Position numbers and translations under genes: made by a program. The notes beneath the pieces are model-generated. The model made no database searches. It was not told where the DNA came from and saw nothing but the letters and a program-made list of their open reading frames with translations. Below, piece by piece: positions 5,275 through 14,851 of a stretch of 36,441 nucleotides of DNA (the stretch's first letter is position 1; every line of letters starts with the position of its first letter). Source of the stretch: a virus; IMG/VR virus record IMGVR_UViG_3300037247_001858, positions 1 to 36,441 of that record; one strand, given 5' to 3'.

Positions 5275-5517
5275 CAACCCAACTTCAACCCAGCCCGTAG
5301 GGTTCTACTAACAGCCAACGGCAAAAGAATCGGGCGGCGCTGATTGAGATATCAGCCGCGTAGCGATGAGCGCCTACGGCCACCAAACCCACGGCGCTCG
5401 CCAGCGTTCTCATTGGCGGTTGCCGACTGTCCGGCCGATGGTCAAAGCTGGCACAGCGCTTACAATCGGGGCGCTAACGTCGGGAGTCGGGTATGCGCGT
5501 CGGGGAAGCGTGAAACA
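5275..5517. other. Intergenic stretch, no convincing gene
   Basis: The stretch contains a short stem GCTGAT/ATCAGC near 5339-5356 and the second copy of GGGCGCTAACGT (5469-5480). A frame from 5366 overlaps the next gene in another frame and has no ribosome-binding site, so it is not called. Confidence 0.4.
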
Positions 5518-7047: not shown

Positions 7048-8867
7048 CGCAGTCGCTGGCACACGTAGACGCGAGCGTGAATCCGCCCACGACCCTGCGG
7101 GCGAATTTTGAGTTTCGTCACGCCCTGGAGCGGCGGATGGATCGCAACGAGTCCGTGCGCCGGGCGGTGATATTGCGTTGCCGCAAGGACGTCTGCTACT
7201 TCGTCAACGCCTTGGGTTGGACCAAGCAGGAGAAACCCTACCCGCTTCAGGTGCCCATGATTCTCTATCCGTTGCAGACACGGTACATGCGTTTGTTGCA
7301 GAAGGACGGGGGCCGGCGTCATTTTCACCTAGACAAGTCGCGGGACATGGGTCTGACGTGGTGCACCTTGCTCTGGGTCTTCTGGCACTGGCTCCTGACA
7401 CCGGGCGCCAAGTTCCATCTGGCGAGTTGGAAGGAATGGCTGGTCGATCAGAGGGGGCACCCGGGCACGCACTTTGCGAAGCTGGACTACATACTGGAGC
7501 ACCTGCCGGAGTCGATAAGGCCCAACGTCAAGCGTGGGGTGGACCGGCGCAAGATGTTAATGCGCAATCCGATCGGGGGTGCGGTGATTACGGGCGAGTC
7601 CACGAGCCGCCGCATGGGCCACCAGGACCGGAACATGGCGGCGATTCTGGACGAGTTCGCGTTGATGGGCGAAACCCCGCGTGACGGGTATGCGATTCTG
7701 GGGGGTATACGGCCGACGACGGACTGCATGATTCTGCAATCCACGCCGCAGGGCATGGGCAACGCGTTCGCCGATTACAAGAGCAAGGCGCATCACCAGT
7801 TGTCGTTCTGGTGGCCGGATCACCCGCTCAAAGGCAAGGACCTGTCGGGCGAGGGGCTGAACGAGAAACCGCCCAGCGGCTTCTGGTCGGACGACGTGGA
7901 GCGCCTGCGGGGGCGCCTGACCAGTCCGTGGTTCGAGGCACAGGAAGAGGAGGCGGTCAACGAGCAGGAGATAGCCCAGGAGATCCAGATCGACTACTGC
8001 GGTTCGGGCTGGCAATTTTTCCCCGAGCTGGTCTTGCGGCGGATACTGGTCGAGGACGTAATGCCGCCGCTGCATGAGGGCGAGCTGGTCTTGGACCCGG
8101 ACTCCGGCTCCTGCAAGGGCTTTACGGAGTGCGAAGGCCCGCTGAAGCTCTGGATTCACCTTACCCGATCGGGTTGGCCGTCGGCGGAGTTCGATTACGT
8201 GGTGGGTGCGGACATCGCCGCCGGCAGCCGGGACAGTACGGGCGCCGGCTGGTCGAATTCCTGCGCCGCAGTGCTGAACATGCAGACCGGCGAGGTGGTC
8301 GCCGAGCTTGTGGTTCACGGCGTGGATGCCGCGGATTTCGCCGTCATGGTGGTGGCGCTGTGCTACTATTTTCGCAAGGCAGGGCTGATCTGGGAGGGTA
8401 ACGGCCCCGGGCTGCACTTCGGGCGGATGGTGACGGACCACCTGCGCTACGGTAACATCTACTACCGGCGCAAGGAGAAGCAGATCATGCACGCCCAGAC
8501 CCTTGAGCCTGGGTTCTGGTCGGTGCCCACCACGAAGTACTGGCTGATGACCGCCTACCGGGCGGCGCTCGATAAACGGTTGATCATTGAGCGCAGCAAG
8601 CACGCCATCGCCGAATGCCGCATGTACCAGGAGACCGCCACCGGGGTCGTACACGCCATTGCGGCCAGCACGCCGGACCCGACGGGTGCCCGGGAGAATC
8701 ACGCCGACCGGGTAATCGCCCGGGCCTTGGCCTATCGTAAGATGGTGGAAGATGGGTATAATCCTCTGGACCACGAGCGAAGTCCGCAGCGGATCATACC
8801 GGCCAGCAGCCTGGCGGGGGTCCGGGAGTTCGCCGGGCAGAGAGAAGCCGTGGCGCTGGGATACTGA
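7044..8867 (+). CDS. terL: Terminase large subunit
   Basis: This 607-aa protein is the ATP-driven packaging motor with a C-terminal nuclease that cuts concatemeric DNA. It starts at TTG 7044, overlapping the upstream stop as TTGA. The ATPase part shows the terminase-type P-loop KSRDMGLTW (98-106), Walker B ILDEFA (201-206) and coupling motif QSTPQGMGN (232-240). The RNase H-like nuclease part shows VVGADIA with D390, WEGNGPG (450-456) and a distal acidic residue in ENHADR (D555). The length is usual for the family. The P-loop has Leu where many ATPases have Lys after Gly, with an upstream Lys98 instead, as in other terminases of this group. The identification is secure. Confidence 0.95.
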   Translation: MTQSLAHVDASVNPPTTLRANFEFRHALERRMDRNESVRRAVILRCRKDVCYFVNALGWTKQEKPYPLQVPMILYPLQTRYMRLLQKDGGRRHFHLDKSRDMGLTWCTLLWVFWHWLLTPGAKFHLASWKEWLVDQRGHPGTHFAKLDYILEHLPESIRPNVKRGVDRRKMLMRNPIGGAVITGESTSRRMGHQDRNMAAILDEFALMGETPRDGYAILGGIRPTTDCMILQSTPQGMGNAFADYKSKAHHQLSFWWPDHPLKGKDLSGEGLNEKPPSGFWSDDVERLRGRLTSPWFEAQEEEAVNEQEIAQEIQIDYCGSGWQFFPELVLRRILVEDVMPPLHEGELVLDPDSGSCKGFTECEGPLKLWIHLTRSGWPSAEFDYVVGADIAAGSRDSTGAGWSNSCAAVLNMQTGEVVAELVVHGVDAADFAVMVVALCYYFRKAGLIWEGNGPGLHFGRMVTDHLRYGNIYYRRKEKQIMHAQTLEPGFWSVPTTKYWLMTAYRAALDKRLIIERSKHAIAECRMYQETATGVVHAIAASTPDPTGARENHADRVIARALAYRKMVEDGYNPLDHERSPQRIIPASSLAGVREFAGQREAVALGY

Positions 8868-10560: not shown

Positions 10561-10682
10561 ATGAAGTAATCGGCTGCAAGGATGGGGCACTGCCGGGGAT
10601 GGCTTCCCGGAAGTGCCGTACCGAAAGTACCTGTACGAAGGTGCGAACGGATGTTTCGTTCGTGCCTTTTTCTTTGCGCCGC
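10561..10682 (+). ncRNA. Structured RNA element, copy A
   Basis: The element lies between the genes ending at 10556 and starting at 10697. It starts ATGAAG, then hairpin 1 (GGCACT-g-CCGGG 10586-10597 with CCCGG-a-AGTGCC 10606-10617; loop GATGGCTT), then GTACC and CCTGTACGA (10630-10638), then hairpin 2 (AAGGTGCGAACG 10638-10649 with CGTTCGTGCCTT 10657-10668) followed by TTTTTCTTT and the tail TTCTTTGCGCCGC ending at 10682. Hairpin 2 plus the T-tract looks like an intrinsic terminator. A second copy with the same order but different stem sequences is at 13851-13974. Confidence 0.65.
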
Positions 10683-10696
10683 TAGGAGTGACGATA

Positions 10697-11119
10697 ATGG
10701 TTACGAGTGTAACGTCGGCGAGACCGGCAACAAGTTCGCTGATTCAGACGCAGGTTTCGGCGCTCTCCAATGCGGCGTCGGCCGAAGCGCGCAACGTCAC
10801 GCGGGGGGCGGTGACGCTCTTCACGGTGACGGTGGACAATCAGGCGGCCGCCGCCAGCAATACGAAAGTCTGGATCAAGCTCTACGATGACATTTCCAAC
10901 TCGTGGGCGCCGGGCACCACCAAGGCGAAGCTTGGATTCCCCATCGAAGCGTGGACGGCGGCGGATGGTTCTCAGGCTATCGGAACGTATCAGGTCATGC
11001 ACTCCCGGTCGGGTGTGCTGTTCGATAACGGTATAAGCCTCGCTGCGGCCCAAACACCTGGTGACGATGCCACGGCTGCTCCGGCTACGAACGTACTTGC
11101 CGAACTTACACACAGTTAG
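10697..11119 (+). CDS. 140-aa virion-associated beta protein
   Basis: The start is ATG 10697 with AGGAGTGACGATA in front; the upstream open frame to 10613 only runs through the RNA element. The protein begins MVTSVTSARPATSSLIQTQV and has AVTLFTVTVDNQA, NTKVWIKLYDD and a distal YQVMHSRSGVLF, a strand-rich sandwich-like pattern. It is the first gene after RNA element copy A and precedes another protein of similar style. A head or tail decoration role is inferred from the neighbourhood. Confidence 0.7.
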   Translation: MVTSVTSARPATSSLIQTQVSALSNAASAEARNVTRGAVTLFTVTVDNQAAAASNTKVWIKLYDDISNSWAPGTTKAKLGFPIEAWTAADGSQAIGTYQVMHSRSGVLFDNGISLAAAQTPGDDATAAPATNVLAELTHS

Positions 11120-11128
11120 GACCGAACT

Positions 11129-11560
11129 ATGAGCTACTCAACCATTAAGATAGCCGGGGCTAAAGAGGACTTAATCGTCAGTATCCCCGCCGTGGGTGAG
11201 GCTGTGGGGGCCAACGCCACACCGGAGATTACTCTGACGGCGGCAATCGCCGACAGTGTGCCTCATAAGCTTTACGGCGCCGTCGTGAATTGTGAAGACA
11301 ATCCGAACGAAGATGTGACCCTGCGGCTGTGGGACACCGTAGGGACGCCTACGGTGGGGACCGATGACGCCGCTGGTCGAGCCCACGTGTGGGTACCGGG
11401 GAAGCGCGGCCGGAAAACTGAATACGAATGGCCAATGGGTATCCGGTTTCCCACCGGCATCGCCGCCGCAGTAGTCAAGGGCGATGGTGGGACCGGCGGT
11501 TCGGACAACCCCAGCGGGACGGTGCGCGTCACGCTGCGCATCAAGCAGTCTGCGGTGTAG
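11129..11560 (+). CDS. 143-aa virion-associated beta protein
   Basis: ATG 11129 has AGGA 8 nt upstream. Strands alternate through SYSTIKIAG, ATPEITLTAAIADS, HKLYGAVVNCED, VTLRLWDT and SGTVRVTLRIKQSAV, again sandwich-like. It lies directly before the portal gene. No catalytic motif is present. It may be a decoration or accessory head protein. Confidence 0.65.
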   Translation: MSYSTIKIAGAKEDLIVSIPAVGEAVGANATPEITLTAAIADSVPHKLYGAVVNCEDNPNEDVTLRLWDTVGTPTVGTDDAAGRAHVWVPGKRGRKTEYEWPMGIRFPTGIAAAVVKGDGGTGGSDNPSGTVRVTLRIKQSAV

Positions 11561-11571
11561 CAGGAGATCGA

Positions 11572-13329
11572 ATGGCGCTCTTTAATCCCGACAACCAGGA
11601 AGATATAGGTCGCCTGAAGCAGGCGCTGGTTACCTCGAAGGAAGAGCTGCGCCCTTTGCTTTCCCAGCGGAAGGAGTGTCTGACCGCTTATCAAGGGCAT
11701 CGGTTTTCCTCTGAGAGCATGCCGAAGTCCGCCGATCCGCGCATGTCCATTCCGTTGATGGAGATCGCCGTCGACCTCCACGAACAACTACTTGCCGGAG
11801 AATCGGTGCGCGCCGTTGTTGCGCCGCGCCGCAGCGATCTGGCCCCGTTGGGCGAATTGGTGAAGGATACGCTCGATCTTCTTATGGACGCCATTGAGAT
11901 CGGGCAGACCTTTCAGGATTGGGTTAAGGAAACCTTGTGGGGTTGTGGTGTCGCCAAGGTCGGCCTCTCATTCGAGCGCGGTCGTATTCGCGGCCGGGGC
12001 GGCGGCTTTACACGCCGTATCAATATCCCGTTTGTGGACATTATCGATTTCGACGACCTGCTTATCGACACGTCCGCCTCGCGCTGGAACCGCAAAAAGT
12101 TCATCGGTAACCGGTATTTCGTGCCGCTTGATTGGGCGAAGGCAACGCCGGGGTTCAAGGCGGATGCCCGCAAGGAATTGCAAGCCATAGACCCCGAACT
12201 GAATCGGCCGATTGGATCGTCATCGCCGATCCCGCGCCGCTTCGATTCCAACGCCCTGTTCCCGATGACCGAGTTGAACGATGTGTATCTGCCGTTGGAT
12301 CAGATGATTCTCACGATCTCACCGAACGGGCCGAAAGACGTGTTGCGCAAGGAGCGATGGAAAGGGCCGAGCACGGGGCCTTACCATCTGCTCGGTTATG
12401 AGTTCGTGCCAAACACCGTTATCCCCAAACCGATGGCCTGGGCGTGGATTGACGCCCACACCTCCGTCAACGTGATGTACAACATGGCCGTCAGGCAGGC
12501 GCTGCGCTCCAAACGTAATCCGCTGGTGCCCGTGGGTGCCGAAAAAGATGCCGAACGATTGAAAGACGCGAGGGATGGCGATTGGGTGCCCGTAACCAAG
12601 CCTGAGTTGATCCAGACTTTCGTGGTGCCGGGGGCGGACCCGTCGCTGCTCAATCTCGTCGGTCAGCTCATCAACGTGTTCAGTTTCATGGCCGGCAACG
12701 TAAATCTGCTCGCCGGCCTAAGTGCACAAAGTCCCACGTTGGGCCAGGACAAGATATTGCAGGGTGGCGGATCGCGGCGCATGGCCGAGCTTCAGCGTAG
12801 GAGCAAACGGGCGTTTGCAGGAGTAATGAGCGCTCTGGCGTGGTATCTGTTCCGAGAACGGGATTTGCGGGTGCGTATGGAACGGAAGGTGGGCGATATC
12901 AGCATACCAGTGAGGCTGCGCCATGAGGACCTGAAGGGTCGCTTTCTGGAATTCAATTTCGACATTGAACCCATACGCCACAAATCTCCGGACGAACGGC
13001 TGGGTTTGCTCTTGAACTGGATCAGGGAGGTCGTTCTGCCGCTCCAGGGCCAAATGGGGCAGGCAGGGTTTGGCCTGGACATTCAGGAGTTGCACCGTAT
13101 CGGCCGGGATTACGGGGATATCCCGGAACTCGATCGGATTATTCGCAATCTGGGCCGCAATCTGAGCCCGCAGGAGACGGCGGCGTTGACGGGCGGCGGC
13201 GGTCGCGGGTCCGCCGGCGGCGGTGCCCAAGGGCAAGGTGGGGCGGCAAACATCGGGGGCAACGGGACCGGATTTGGTTTTTCGCCGTCCCCTGCGCCGG
13301 CCGTGGCCGGTCAGGGCGGGTTTGTGTAG
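11572..13329 (+). CDS. Portal (head-tail connector) protein
   Basis: The 585-aa protein starts at ATG 11572 with CAGGAG upstream; the frame open to 11428 overlaps the previous gene. Portals form the dodecameric ring through which DNA passes. Typical podovirus-portal features are the helical N-terminus, LLAGESVRAVVAP, the long central domain, and the C-terminal block NLLAGLSAQSPTLGQDKIL with the following Arg-rich helix RRMAELQRRSKRAFAG. The Gly-rich C-terminal tail (GGGGRGSAGGG and on) is probably disordered. Size and the order portal, conserved protein, scaffold, capsid support the call. Confidence 0.88.
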   Translation: MALFNPDNQEDIGRLKQALVTSKEELRPLLSQRKECLTAYQGHRFSSESMPKSADPRMSIPLMEIAVDLHEQLLAGESVRAVVAPRRSDLAPLGELVKDTLDLLMDAIEIGQTFQDWVKETLWGCGVAKVGLSFERGRIRGRGGGFTRRINIPFVDIIDFDDLLIDTSASRWNRKKFIGNRYFVPLDWAKATPGFKADARKELQAIDPELNRPIGSSSPIPRRFDSNALFPMTELNDVYLPLDQMILTISPNGPKDVLRKERWKGPSTGPYHLLGYEFVPNTVIPKPMAWAWIDAHTSVNVMYNMAVRQALRSKRNPLVPVGAEKDAERLKDARDGDWVPVTKPELIQTFVVPGADPSLLNLVGQLINVFSFMAGNVNLLAGLSAQSPTLGQDKILQGGGSRRMAELQRRSKRAFAGVMSALAWYLFRERDLRVRMERKVGDISIPVRLRHEDLKGRFLEFNFDIEPIRHKSPDERLGLLLNWIREVVLPLQGQMGQAGFGLDIQELHRIGRDYGDIPELDRIIRNLGRNLSPQETAALTGGGGRGSAGGGAQGQGGAANIGGNGTGFGFSPSPAPAVAGQGGFV

Positions 13330-13691
13330 TGCCGACTTTTTGCTATCGTCTGCCGGATGGTCGGGTTGTGGAACGGGATGCCCCCATGAGCCGAATTCCG
13401 AAATTCATCAAAGTGGGCGGTCTTGTAGCCCAGCGCGACTACCGCGCCGAACACTGCGGCGTGGTGGGCACGAAGAAAACCCACTGTCGCCCGAATATGG
13501 CCCTGGGCGTGCATCCCCGGCAGATTCCGGAGCTTCAACGGTTGCTCAAGCGGCGCGGTGTGCGAGCTACCCAGTTTGACCAGCGAACCGGCGATTGCCT
13601 CGTCGAGGACCGATCGCACGTCAACGACATCTGCAAGGCGCGCGGGATGCGGAATCAGGACGGCGGGTATGGTGACTTCTGCGGTGTGTAG
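13329..13691 (+). CDS. Conserved phage protein between portal and scaffold
   Basis: GTG 13329 overlaps the portal stop as TAGTG. The 120-aa protein begins MPTFCYRLPDGRVVERDAPM, reminiscent of FmdB-type ribbon starts but without a clear CxxC. It then has RDYRAEHCG, ALGVHPRQIPELQRLLK and DRSHVNDICKARG ending NQDGGYGD. Proteins with a xGVHPxQI core and a C-terminal GYGD motif are common in phages next to portal genes. Their biochemical role is not established. Confidence 0.75.
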   Translation: MPTFCYRLPDGRVVERDAPMSRIPKFIKVGGLVAQRDYRAEHCGVVGTKKTHCRPNMALGVHPRQIPELQRLLKRRGVRATQFDQRTGDCLVEDRSHVNDICKARGMRNQDGGYGDFCGV

Positions 13692-13719
13692 TGACTTTGG
13701 GACAATTTCGGGCTAGAAT
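13691..13719 (+). promoter_or_regulatory. Candidate internal promoter upstream of scaffold and capsid
   Basis: GTGACT (13691-13696), 17-nt spacer, TAGAAT (13714-13719). The -10 is good and the -35 matches at four central positions. A second weak pair, TTGACA (13724-13729) and CACAAT (13747-13752), follows. It would add transcription for the capsid genes. Confidence 0.4.
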
Positions 13720-13728
13720 GGGGTTGAC

Positions 13729-13851
13729 ATGGCGTTACACGGTCAGCACAATAGAAGGCGCGCTAAGATGCGCAGGTTGAAAGTCAGAGCCCTGCGGGCT
13801 CGGGCGCGACGTGGATCGCGCTCTCCAAAACCGCAAAAACGAGGAACATGA
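13729..13851 (+). CDS. 40-aa arginine-rich peptide
   Basis: ATG 13729 opens a 40-codon frame with about 15 Arg and 4-5 Lys: MALHGQHNRRRAKMRRLKVR, then ALRARARRGSRSPKP and a short basic end. Its TGA (13849-13851) coincides with the first base of RNA element copy B. The composition resembles small nucleic-acid-condensing or RNA-binding peptides. The ribosome-binding site (TGGGG) is weak, and a frame this rich in Arg could arise by chance in GC-rich DNA, so confidence is moderate. Confidence 0.45.
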   Translation: MALHGQHNRRRAKMRRLKVRALRARARRGSRSPKPQKRGT

Positions 13852-13974
13852 TGAAGCCGTAACCGGCCGCAAAGACCAGGCGCAAGCTGGCTTGGCTCCC
13901 AGCTAGTGTCGTACCACGAGCTCCTGTACGAGGGCGCGGATGGTTTTCCATCCGCGCCCTCTTCTTTGCGCCGC
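13851..13974 (+). ncRNA. Structured RNA element, copy B
   Basis: It has the order of copy A: ATGAAG (13851-13856), hairpin 1 (AGCTGG 13885-13890 with CCAGCT 13899-13904; loop CTTGGCTC), GTACC (13911-13915), CCTGTACGA (13923-13931), hairpin 2 (14 perfect pairs, GAGGGCGCGGATGG 13930-13943 with 13948-13961, loop TTTT) and the tail TTCTTTGCGCCGC (13962-13974). Stem sequences differ from copy A while pairing is kept. It sits 28 nt upstream of the scaffold ATG. Confidence 0.7.
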
Positions 13975-14002
13975 CGCCGGCACCTTTTCAGGAACCATTG
14001 CG

Positions 14003-14851
14003 ATGAGCGACGAAAACGTCGGCAAGCCGGAAGACGAACGGAATCCAGAGGACGAGGCAAAGGGCTCCGTAGAGGACGAGGATGGGGATGACGACGACGA
14101 TCTCGATGAGGAGTTCGACGAGGACCTTGTCGATGCAGCGCGCGTCGTAGGTCTCAATCCCGACGACTTCGATACGGAGCGCGAACTTGAACGGGAGACG
14201 CAAACCCGCGTGCGTGCTCTGGAGACTTCACCGGCGGGCGCCGCGACTGATACGGTGGAGGAGAAGGAACTGAATCTGGCTGCCCTGGAAGTCGCTCTCA
14301 AGAACAAGGATGACCTCGATGAGGGGCTGGTCGCCGCACTGGAGAAGTTGGCCGCCGATAGTGGCGCGAACTTCAAGAAGCTCGTCGAACGCCTGGAGGC
14401 CCGTACGGGCGACGAGCAGGCGCTAACCAAACGAATTGGCGAGTTGTCTCGGCAGGTTTCGAGGTTGGGGGCGCAGGAAGTGCAACATCGGCTTGATGAC
14501 TGGATCGCCGATTCAAAATCTGTGCAAGCCTATCTCGGCGAGGGGAAGACCCGCAATTTGGATCCCGATGGTAAGTTTGCGCGTCGCCGACGTGCCTTGA
14601 GCCACCGCGCCGACACGATCGCCGGTCGTCAGCGAGGTGGTTTCACGATGGAACAGATGTTCAAACGCGCTTTCAAGAAGATGCACGCGGTCGAGAAGGA
14701 TGATCCGAAGAAGTCTAAGGGCGCTACCCGCATGGCACGCGCCAGCGGATCGAAGCCCACGGACTTCTCCGGTGGTTCCGACGAATCGCCGGAGGCCGTC
14801 AAGCGTGAAGCCGTGGACGTGGTCGCCAAGTTCCGGCGTAACGCGGGTTAA
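14003..14851 (+). CDS. Scaffolding protein
   Basis: ATG 14003 with CAGGA upstream; the open frame to 13940 runs through the RNA hairpin. The 282-aa protein has a very acidic N-terminal quarter (DEDGDDDDDLDEEFDEDL at about 27-44), a long charged helix/coiled-coil middle (LNLAALEVALKNKDDLDEG, KLVERLEART, LTKRIGELSRQVSRLG) and a basic C-terminus (RMARASGSK, VVAKFRRNAG). This charge layout and its place just before the major capsid gene are typical for phage scaffolds, which guide procapsid assembly and leave before maturation. The basic C-terminus would contact the capsid protein. Confidence 0.8.
   Translation: MSDENVGKPEDERNPEDEAKGSVEDEDGDDDDDLDEEFDEDLVDAARVVGLNPDDFDTERELERETQTRVRALETSPAGAATDTVEEKELNLAALEVALKNKDDLDEGLVAALEKLAADSGANFKKLVERLEARTGDEQALTKRIGELSRQVSRLGAQEVQHRLDDWIADSKSVQAYLGEGKTRNLDPDGKFARRRRALSHRADTIAGRQRGGFTMEQMFKRAFKKMHAVEKDDPKKSKGATRMARASGSKPTDFSGGSDESPEAVKREAVDVVAKFRRNAG

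Follow-up and report, generated by a model that had tools for sequence, protein, structure and literature searches.

A duplicated four-way-junction RNA element, possibly a transcription attenuator, in the presumed virion operon of an almost uncharted phage lineage

The window analyzed here (IMG/VR virus record; 36,441 bases) contains two structured RNA elements of ~110 bases each (copies A and B; Table 1), which stand before two blocks of presumed virion genes. We tentatively regard both copies as cis-acting RNA leaders of the transcription-attenuator kind that might tune the expression of these two blocks, a reading that is quite possible, if short of probable, and we have filed the sequence with attenuators and leaders, as a new RNA element.

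The two copies are 70% identical across 110 aligned bases and, each folded alone, give the same four-way junction of helices P1 to P4, with folding z-scores against dinucleotide shuffles of −6.3 for copy A and −6.6 for copy B. P1 is an 11-bp closing stem with one bulged base, in which CGGC-N-GCAARGA pairs with TCTTTGC-GCCG; P2 consists of 5–6 pairs, a purine mismatch and a further 5–6 pairs, with TGGCT in the loop; P3 is made of GTAC paired with GTAC around an 11-base loop; and P4, with 15 pairs in copy A and 14 in copy B, leads into a T-rich tail. None of the 39 consensus pairs is broken in either copy, and 12 of them vary, five on both sides and seven on one side. When A and B were used without other copies, a permutation control gave 221/20,000, which is moderate only, and the stronger support for the structure comes from the copies of a related phage.

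A preliminary description of this DNA had reported a duplicated structured element with shared short blocks and two hairpins. The blocks are where it placed them, and the duplicated element, with the same fold in A and B, is real and larger than was proposed: the two hairpins seen at that time are P2 and P4, but P1 and P3 had been missed. TTCTTTGCGCCGC, taken for a plain shared block, is one strand of the closing stem P1, by which the ends of the element pair together, and GTACC and CCTGTACGA, also listed as plain shared blocks, form the third hairpin, P3. The first hairpin of copy B had been given 6 pairs and has 11 around a mismatch; for the last hairpin, the count of 14 pairs in copy B was right, whereas copy A has 15 rather than 12.

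Table 1. Positions in the window of the two element copies, their parts and neighboring features.
Feature	Position	Strand	Basis or remark
RNA element copy A, whole	10571..10681	+	folding, A/B pairing, covariance model
Copy A P1 5' strand CGGC-T-GCAAGGA, one bulged base	10571..10582	+	folding, pairing
Copy A P2 hairpin, TGGCT in loop	10586..10617	+	folding, pairing
Copy A P3 hairpin GTAC/GTAC, 11-nt loop	10618..10636	+	folding, pairing
Copy A P4 hairpin and T-rich tail, terminator-like	10637..10669	+	folding, terminator score
Copy A P1 3' strand TCTTTGCGCCG	10671..10681	+	folding, pairing
Copy A alternative helix (10627-10632 paired with 10639-10644), antiterminator-like, incompatible with P4	10627..10644	+	suggestive only
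RNA element copy B, whole	13864..13973	+	folding, A/B pairing, covariance model
Copy B P1 5' strand CGGC-C-GCAAAGA	13864..13875	+	folding, pairing
Copy B P2 hairpin, TGGCT in loop	13879..13910	+	folding, pairing
Copy B P3 hairpin	13911..13929	+	folding, pairing
Copy B P4 hairpin, best terminator-scoring site of the window	13930..13961	+	terminator score
Copy B P1 3' strand TCTTTGCGCCG	13963..13973	+	folding, pairing
Copy B alternative helix (13920-13925 paired with 13932-13937), weak, with one mismatch	13920..13937	+	
140-aa gene read through copy A, weak Bbp16-like match	10697..11119	+	
282-aa gene read through copy B, scaffold-like by position only (inferred)	14003..14851	+	
Promoter-like GTGACT-17-TAGAAT	13691..13719	+	relative: TTGACA-17-TAGGAT, same place
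Small Arg-rich ORF of 40 aa, after the promoter-like site and before copy B	13729..13851	+	conserved in relative

A TerL search yielded one related contig in IMG/VR, IMGVR_UViG_3300023284_002013 (51 kb), whose TerL is 71% and whose MCP-like protein is 78% identical at the protein level. This relative has exactly two copies of the element (A' and B'), at the same two gene boundaries as A and B. Both were recovered by a covariance model that was trained on A and B alone and given a short calibration, at 8603-8718 (68.0 bits, E 1.1e-15) and 5277-5385 (41.5 bits, E 1.2e-8), and searches with covariance models found no further full copy in the window record or in the relative. Copy B matches the relative with 80% identity over 112 bases, compared with 67–76% in the larger matched stretches around it.

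Across the four copies from these two phages, which form the conservation set, 94.8% of the pair cells are paired and nine pairs show double changes, in an alignment that was fitted to the model and thus leans towards structure. The covariation score of 0.372 was compared with 0.240 in shuffles (0/500), and when the partners were slid by 1–3 columns only 42–52% of cells paired, with at most three double-change pairs. In copy B', P3 has gained one base on each side, and the two pair with each other (CGTAAC/GTTACG), which constitutes a covarying insertion. The compensatory change first claimed from A and B is also seen across the four copies. Conservation is uneven in copy A', where P2 and P4 are clearly kept and P1 and P3 weakly, and where the closed form lies ~10 kcal/mol above the best fold. 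The four-copy model also gave a weak match in antisense orientation across P4 of copy B (13918-13998, −; 26.7 bits, E 2.3e-5), as expected from a self-complementary hairpin.

More homologues were sought widely. Pattern scans of IMG/VR returned the relative and chance matches, a GTDB pattern scan gave ten stretches of which none scored with the covariance models, and searches with the portal, TerL and MCP led only to the same contig or to nothing; the element was not found in phage and plasmid collections and is absent from three phages with a distant TerL. The phage lineage is thus almost uncharted, with one relative in IMG/VR and none in the scanned GTDB genomes, and the element is limited so far to this lineage. 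Between 7044 and 36268 of the window, nearly all virion-region proteins that were tested lack a PHROG or Pfam match.

On the gene strand, the paired columns contain 14 G-U cells and three A-C cells, and this excess indicates selection on the sense RNA rather than on a DNA palindrome; the same one-strand bias speaks for RNA and against DNA palindromes as the only explanation. A coding origin was likewise rejected, since the four copies have no open or common frame: the one that runs open through copy A into its gene meets stops in A', and A' and B' have stops in more than one sense frame. Judged from the sequences, we take an RNA structure under selection on the sense strand, at two conserved sites, to be demonstrated. 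Among 4,227 Rfam models, self-cleaving ribozymes and riboswitches included, there was none that attained its gathering score within or close to the element; the best score, 24.6 bits for Plasmid_R1162 against a cutoff of 55, and all others were not above chance, in agreement with the earlier remark that the element was not recognized as a known family. ARAGORN did not recognize the element as a tRNA or tmRNA, and its sole finding was a tRNA-Gln gene with anticodon TTG at 2811-2884 (−), which puts it on the other strand from the virion genes. A literature search found no published description of the element. The comparisons by which the preliminary description could be judged from sequence, namely copies in a relative, retained pairing, Rfam and coding frames, all went its way.

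Copy A begins 14 nt past the stop of a 109-aa ORF and ends 15 nt before the 140-aa gene, which is followed by one more gene and then by a portal-like gene. Copy B lies 12 nt past the 40-aa Arg-rich ORF and 29 nt before the 282-aa gene, behind which stands an MCP-like gene. We presume that this is a virion operon, based on a weak TerL match (the terminase to phrog_5989, E 2.6e-5), one match to a virion-protein PHROG (a late protein further downstream to phrog_8510, virion structural, E 7e-11), and gene order; no other family match bears on function, and the portal, scaffold and MCP are presumed from gene order and size alone. AlphaFold models of the MCP-like (pLDDT 31) and portal-like (pLDDT 34) proteins were unusable, and PDB sequence searches found nothing useful. 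In both phages, a promoter-like site precedes the Arg-rich ORF with the same spacing; no promoter of its own was found for copy A. The Arg-rich protein of the relative (34 aa, compared with 40 in the window) is 53% identical over 34 residues. This Arg/Lys-rich ORF, at 8467-8571 in the relative, has the promoter-like site before it and copy B after it, and its product might bind RNA or DNA, as a virion protein or as a regulatory one.

The P4 hairpins are set apart by their terminator score, which is of the d'Aubenton-Carafa type. On both strands of the window, the only positive sites are P4 of copy B (29.0) and P4 of copy A (20.1), and on the + strand of 20 kb of the relative only the two orthologous P4 hairpins are positive, with 16.7 and 8.8. 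In 30 simulations of the window, a positive site was usually absent, and 9 had at least one. All four copies thus combine the G+C-rich hairpin and T-rich tract of an intrinsic terminator with a positive score. The preliminary description had each copy end in a terminator-like stem directly upstream of a gene, as found here. The T tract is kept as TTTTT/TTTTTT in A and A' despite their differing P1 strands, and is poorer in the B copies. Elsewhere in the window (1-36441), no intrinsic terminator was recognizable outside the presumed virion operon.

The space behind P4 is informative. From P4 to the start codon there are 27 nt in A, 41 in B, 24 in A' and 28 in B', and 24–41 nt are too short to accommodate a sigma-70 promoter together with a ribosome-binding site. 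As far as can be read from the DNA, the next genes would therefore be transcribed through P4, and they must be expressed by read-through unless there is some unusual initiation inside the element. Genes that stand behind a terminator-like hairpin and are reached only by read-through represent the layout of an attenuator. Among the options offered by the preliminary description, i.e., processing, attenuation and antitermination, the anatomy favors attenuation with read-through.

A candidate for the switch is a six-pair alternative helix between the second half of the P3 loop and the lower 5' strand of P4. In this helix, 23 of 24 cells pair, the best value among 4,371 combinations of two six-column windows that lie outside the main fold. 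In the predicted folding of growing transcripts, it prevails in A and A' up to the synthesis of the P4 3' strand, and is weak in B and B'. Column shuffling gave 0.0066, a value computed after the helix had been noticed, and shuffling of partners among the sequences reached the score in 96 of 500 cases and so gives no support. These data are no more than suggestive of a helix that would block P4.

Taken together, we hypothesize that a polymerase arriving from upstream would make P2 and P3 and then the intrinsic terminator-like P4, at which some transcripts would presumably end while others continue into the next presumed virion-gene block. During the synthesis of P4, pairing of its lower 5' strand with the P3 loop might delay or block the hairpin and favor read-through. 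After read-through, the ends of the element would pair as P1, giving a stable four-armed leader before the ribosome-binding site; P1 could form only then, since its 3' strand overlaps the T tract, and it may stabilize the read-through message or give the ribosome a clean leader. If one valve of this sort precedes the first head-gene block and a second one the scaffold/capsid-like block, the ratio of the blocks could be set. We infer, further, a factor that shifts the balance, protein or other, for which the Arg-rich protein is a candidate by its position and charge only.

Other mechanisms of control were considered and rejected. A short leader ORF before P1 (ATGAAGTAA / ATGAAGCCGTAA) is missing from copy B'. 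Attenuation at the level of translation, by the upstream gene, is at odds with the distance from stop to P1, which is 12–14 nt in the window vs. 31–35 in the relative. Kissing of the P2 and P3 loops is not claimed, as the copies share, by eye, only a three-base core (GCU with AGY).

Termination alone does not explain why P1 pairs past the T tract, and this speaks against the attenuator. It is on this point that a role in RNA processing or stability gains ground, since pairing beyond the T tract would imply that the full read-through RNA is the form that is kept. In T7-like phages, RNase III processing hairpins lie between the genes of a polycistronic messenger; here, a host RNase, for instance RNase III, might similarly cleave or protect P4 and the P1/P4 stack, splitting the messenger into end-protected segments. 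The long, near-perfect stems at gene boundaries and the closed structure with paired ends would suit such a role. However, the present element has P1, P2, P3 and a T tract in addition to an inter-gene hairpin, and processing needs no T-rich tail, yet the tail is kept in A and A'; nor does processing explain why the P4 hairpins are the sole terminator-scoring sites. We consider this explanation rather unlikely. The positive score of P4 with its T tract in all four copies would also fit ordinary intrinsic terminators that end transcription units, with the remaining fold stabilizing the 3' end of the RNA and leaky read-through feeding the downstream genes, but a plain terminator requires none of P1, P2, P3 and their loops, which are conserved between copies and phages, and P1 takes in bases past the usual stop point, making this explanation improbable.

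The closest system in logic is that of the put RNAs of phage HK022, where two structured cis elements, putL and putR, occur in one phage; they are ~70 nt long, consist of two stem-loops, lie downstream of early promoters, and have been shown to bind polymerase (PMC9378689). By analogy, P2 and P3 might bind polymerase and allow it to pass P4 and later stops, and two structured copies per genome, structure kept despite sequence change, polycistronic operons and a terminator-like hairpin immediately after are all in line with this. By contrast, the present element is 110 nt long, has four helices including a closing stem, lies among presumed virion genes rather than at early promoters, and has no Rfam match, so that it does not agree with the put definition and antitermination of this type seems quite improbable. 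A trans-acting small RNA, or a particle or packaging RNA released from the messenger, might be suspected from the compact form, the paired ends, the conserved hairpin loops and the vicinity of packaging and presumed head genes. However, copy A lacks a promoter that would serve it alone, the presence of two diverged copies is more in keeping with cis elements, and both phages retain the location ahead of gene starts; we regard this origin as very improbable.

With intrinsic terminators and attenuator leaders in general, the element shares a G+C-rich hairpin with T-rich tail before a gene and perhaps, if the candidate holds, a competing helix that uses the 5' strand of the hairpin. It differs from them in that the terminator hairpin is enclosed in a closed four-way junction and occurs in two copies in one presumed virion operon, and in that no ligand, leader peptide or protein is known for it.

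A bolder proposal, which we consider improbable, is that the element represents a new class of regulatory RNA in phages: a leader built as a four-way junction, present twice per presumed virion operon, that acts as a terminator/antiterminator switch answering a phage product such as the Arg-rich protein of 34–40 residues, with one shared signal setting the head-gene blocks. The RNA family library that we used (Rfam) is missing this element. Phages need fixed ratios of head proteins from few transcripts, and how this is controlled outside the model phages is mostly unexplained; a folded RNA at two boundaries of presumed head-gene blocks would offer a defined and testable point of control.
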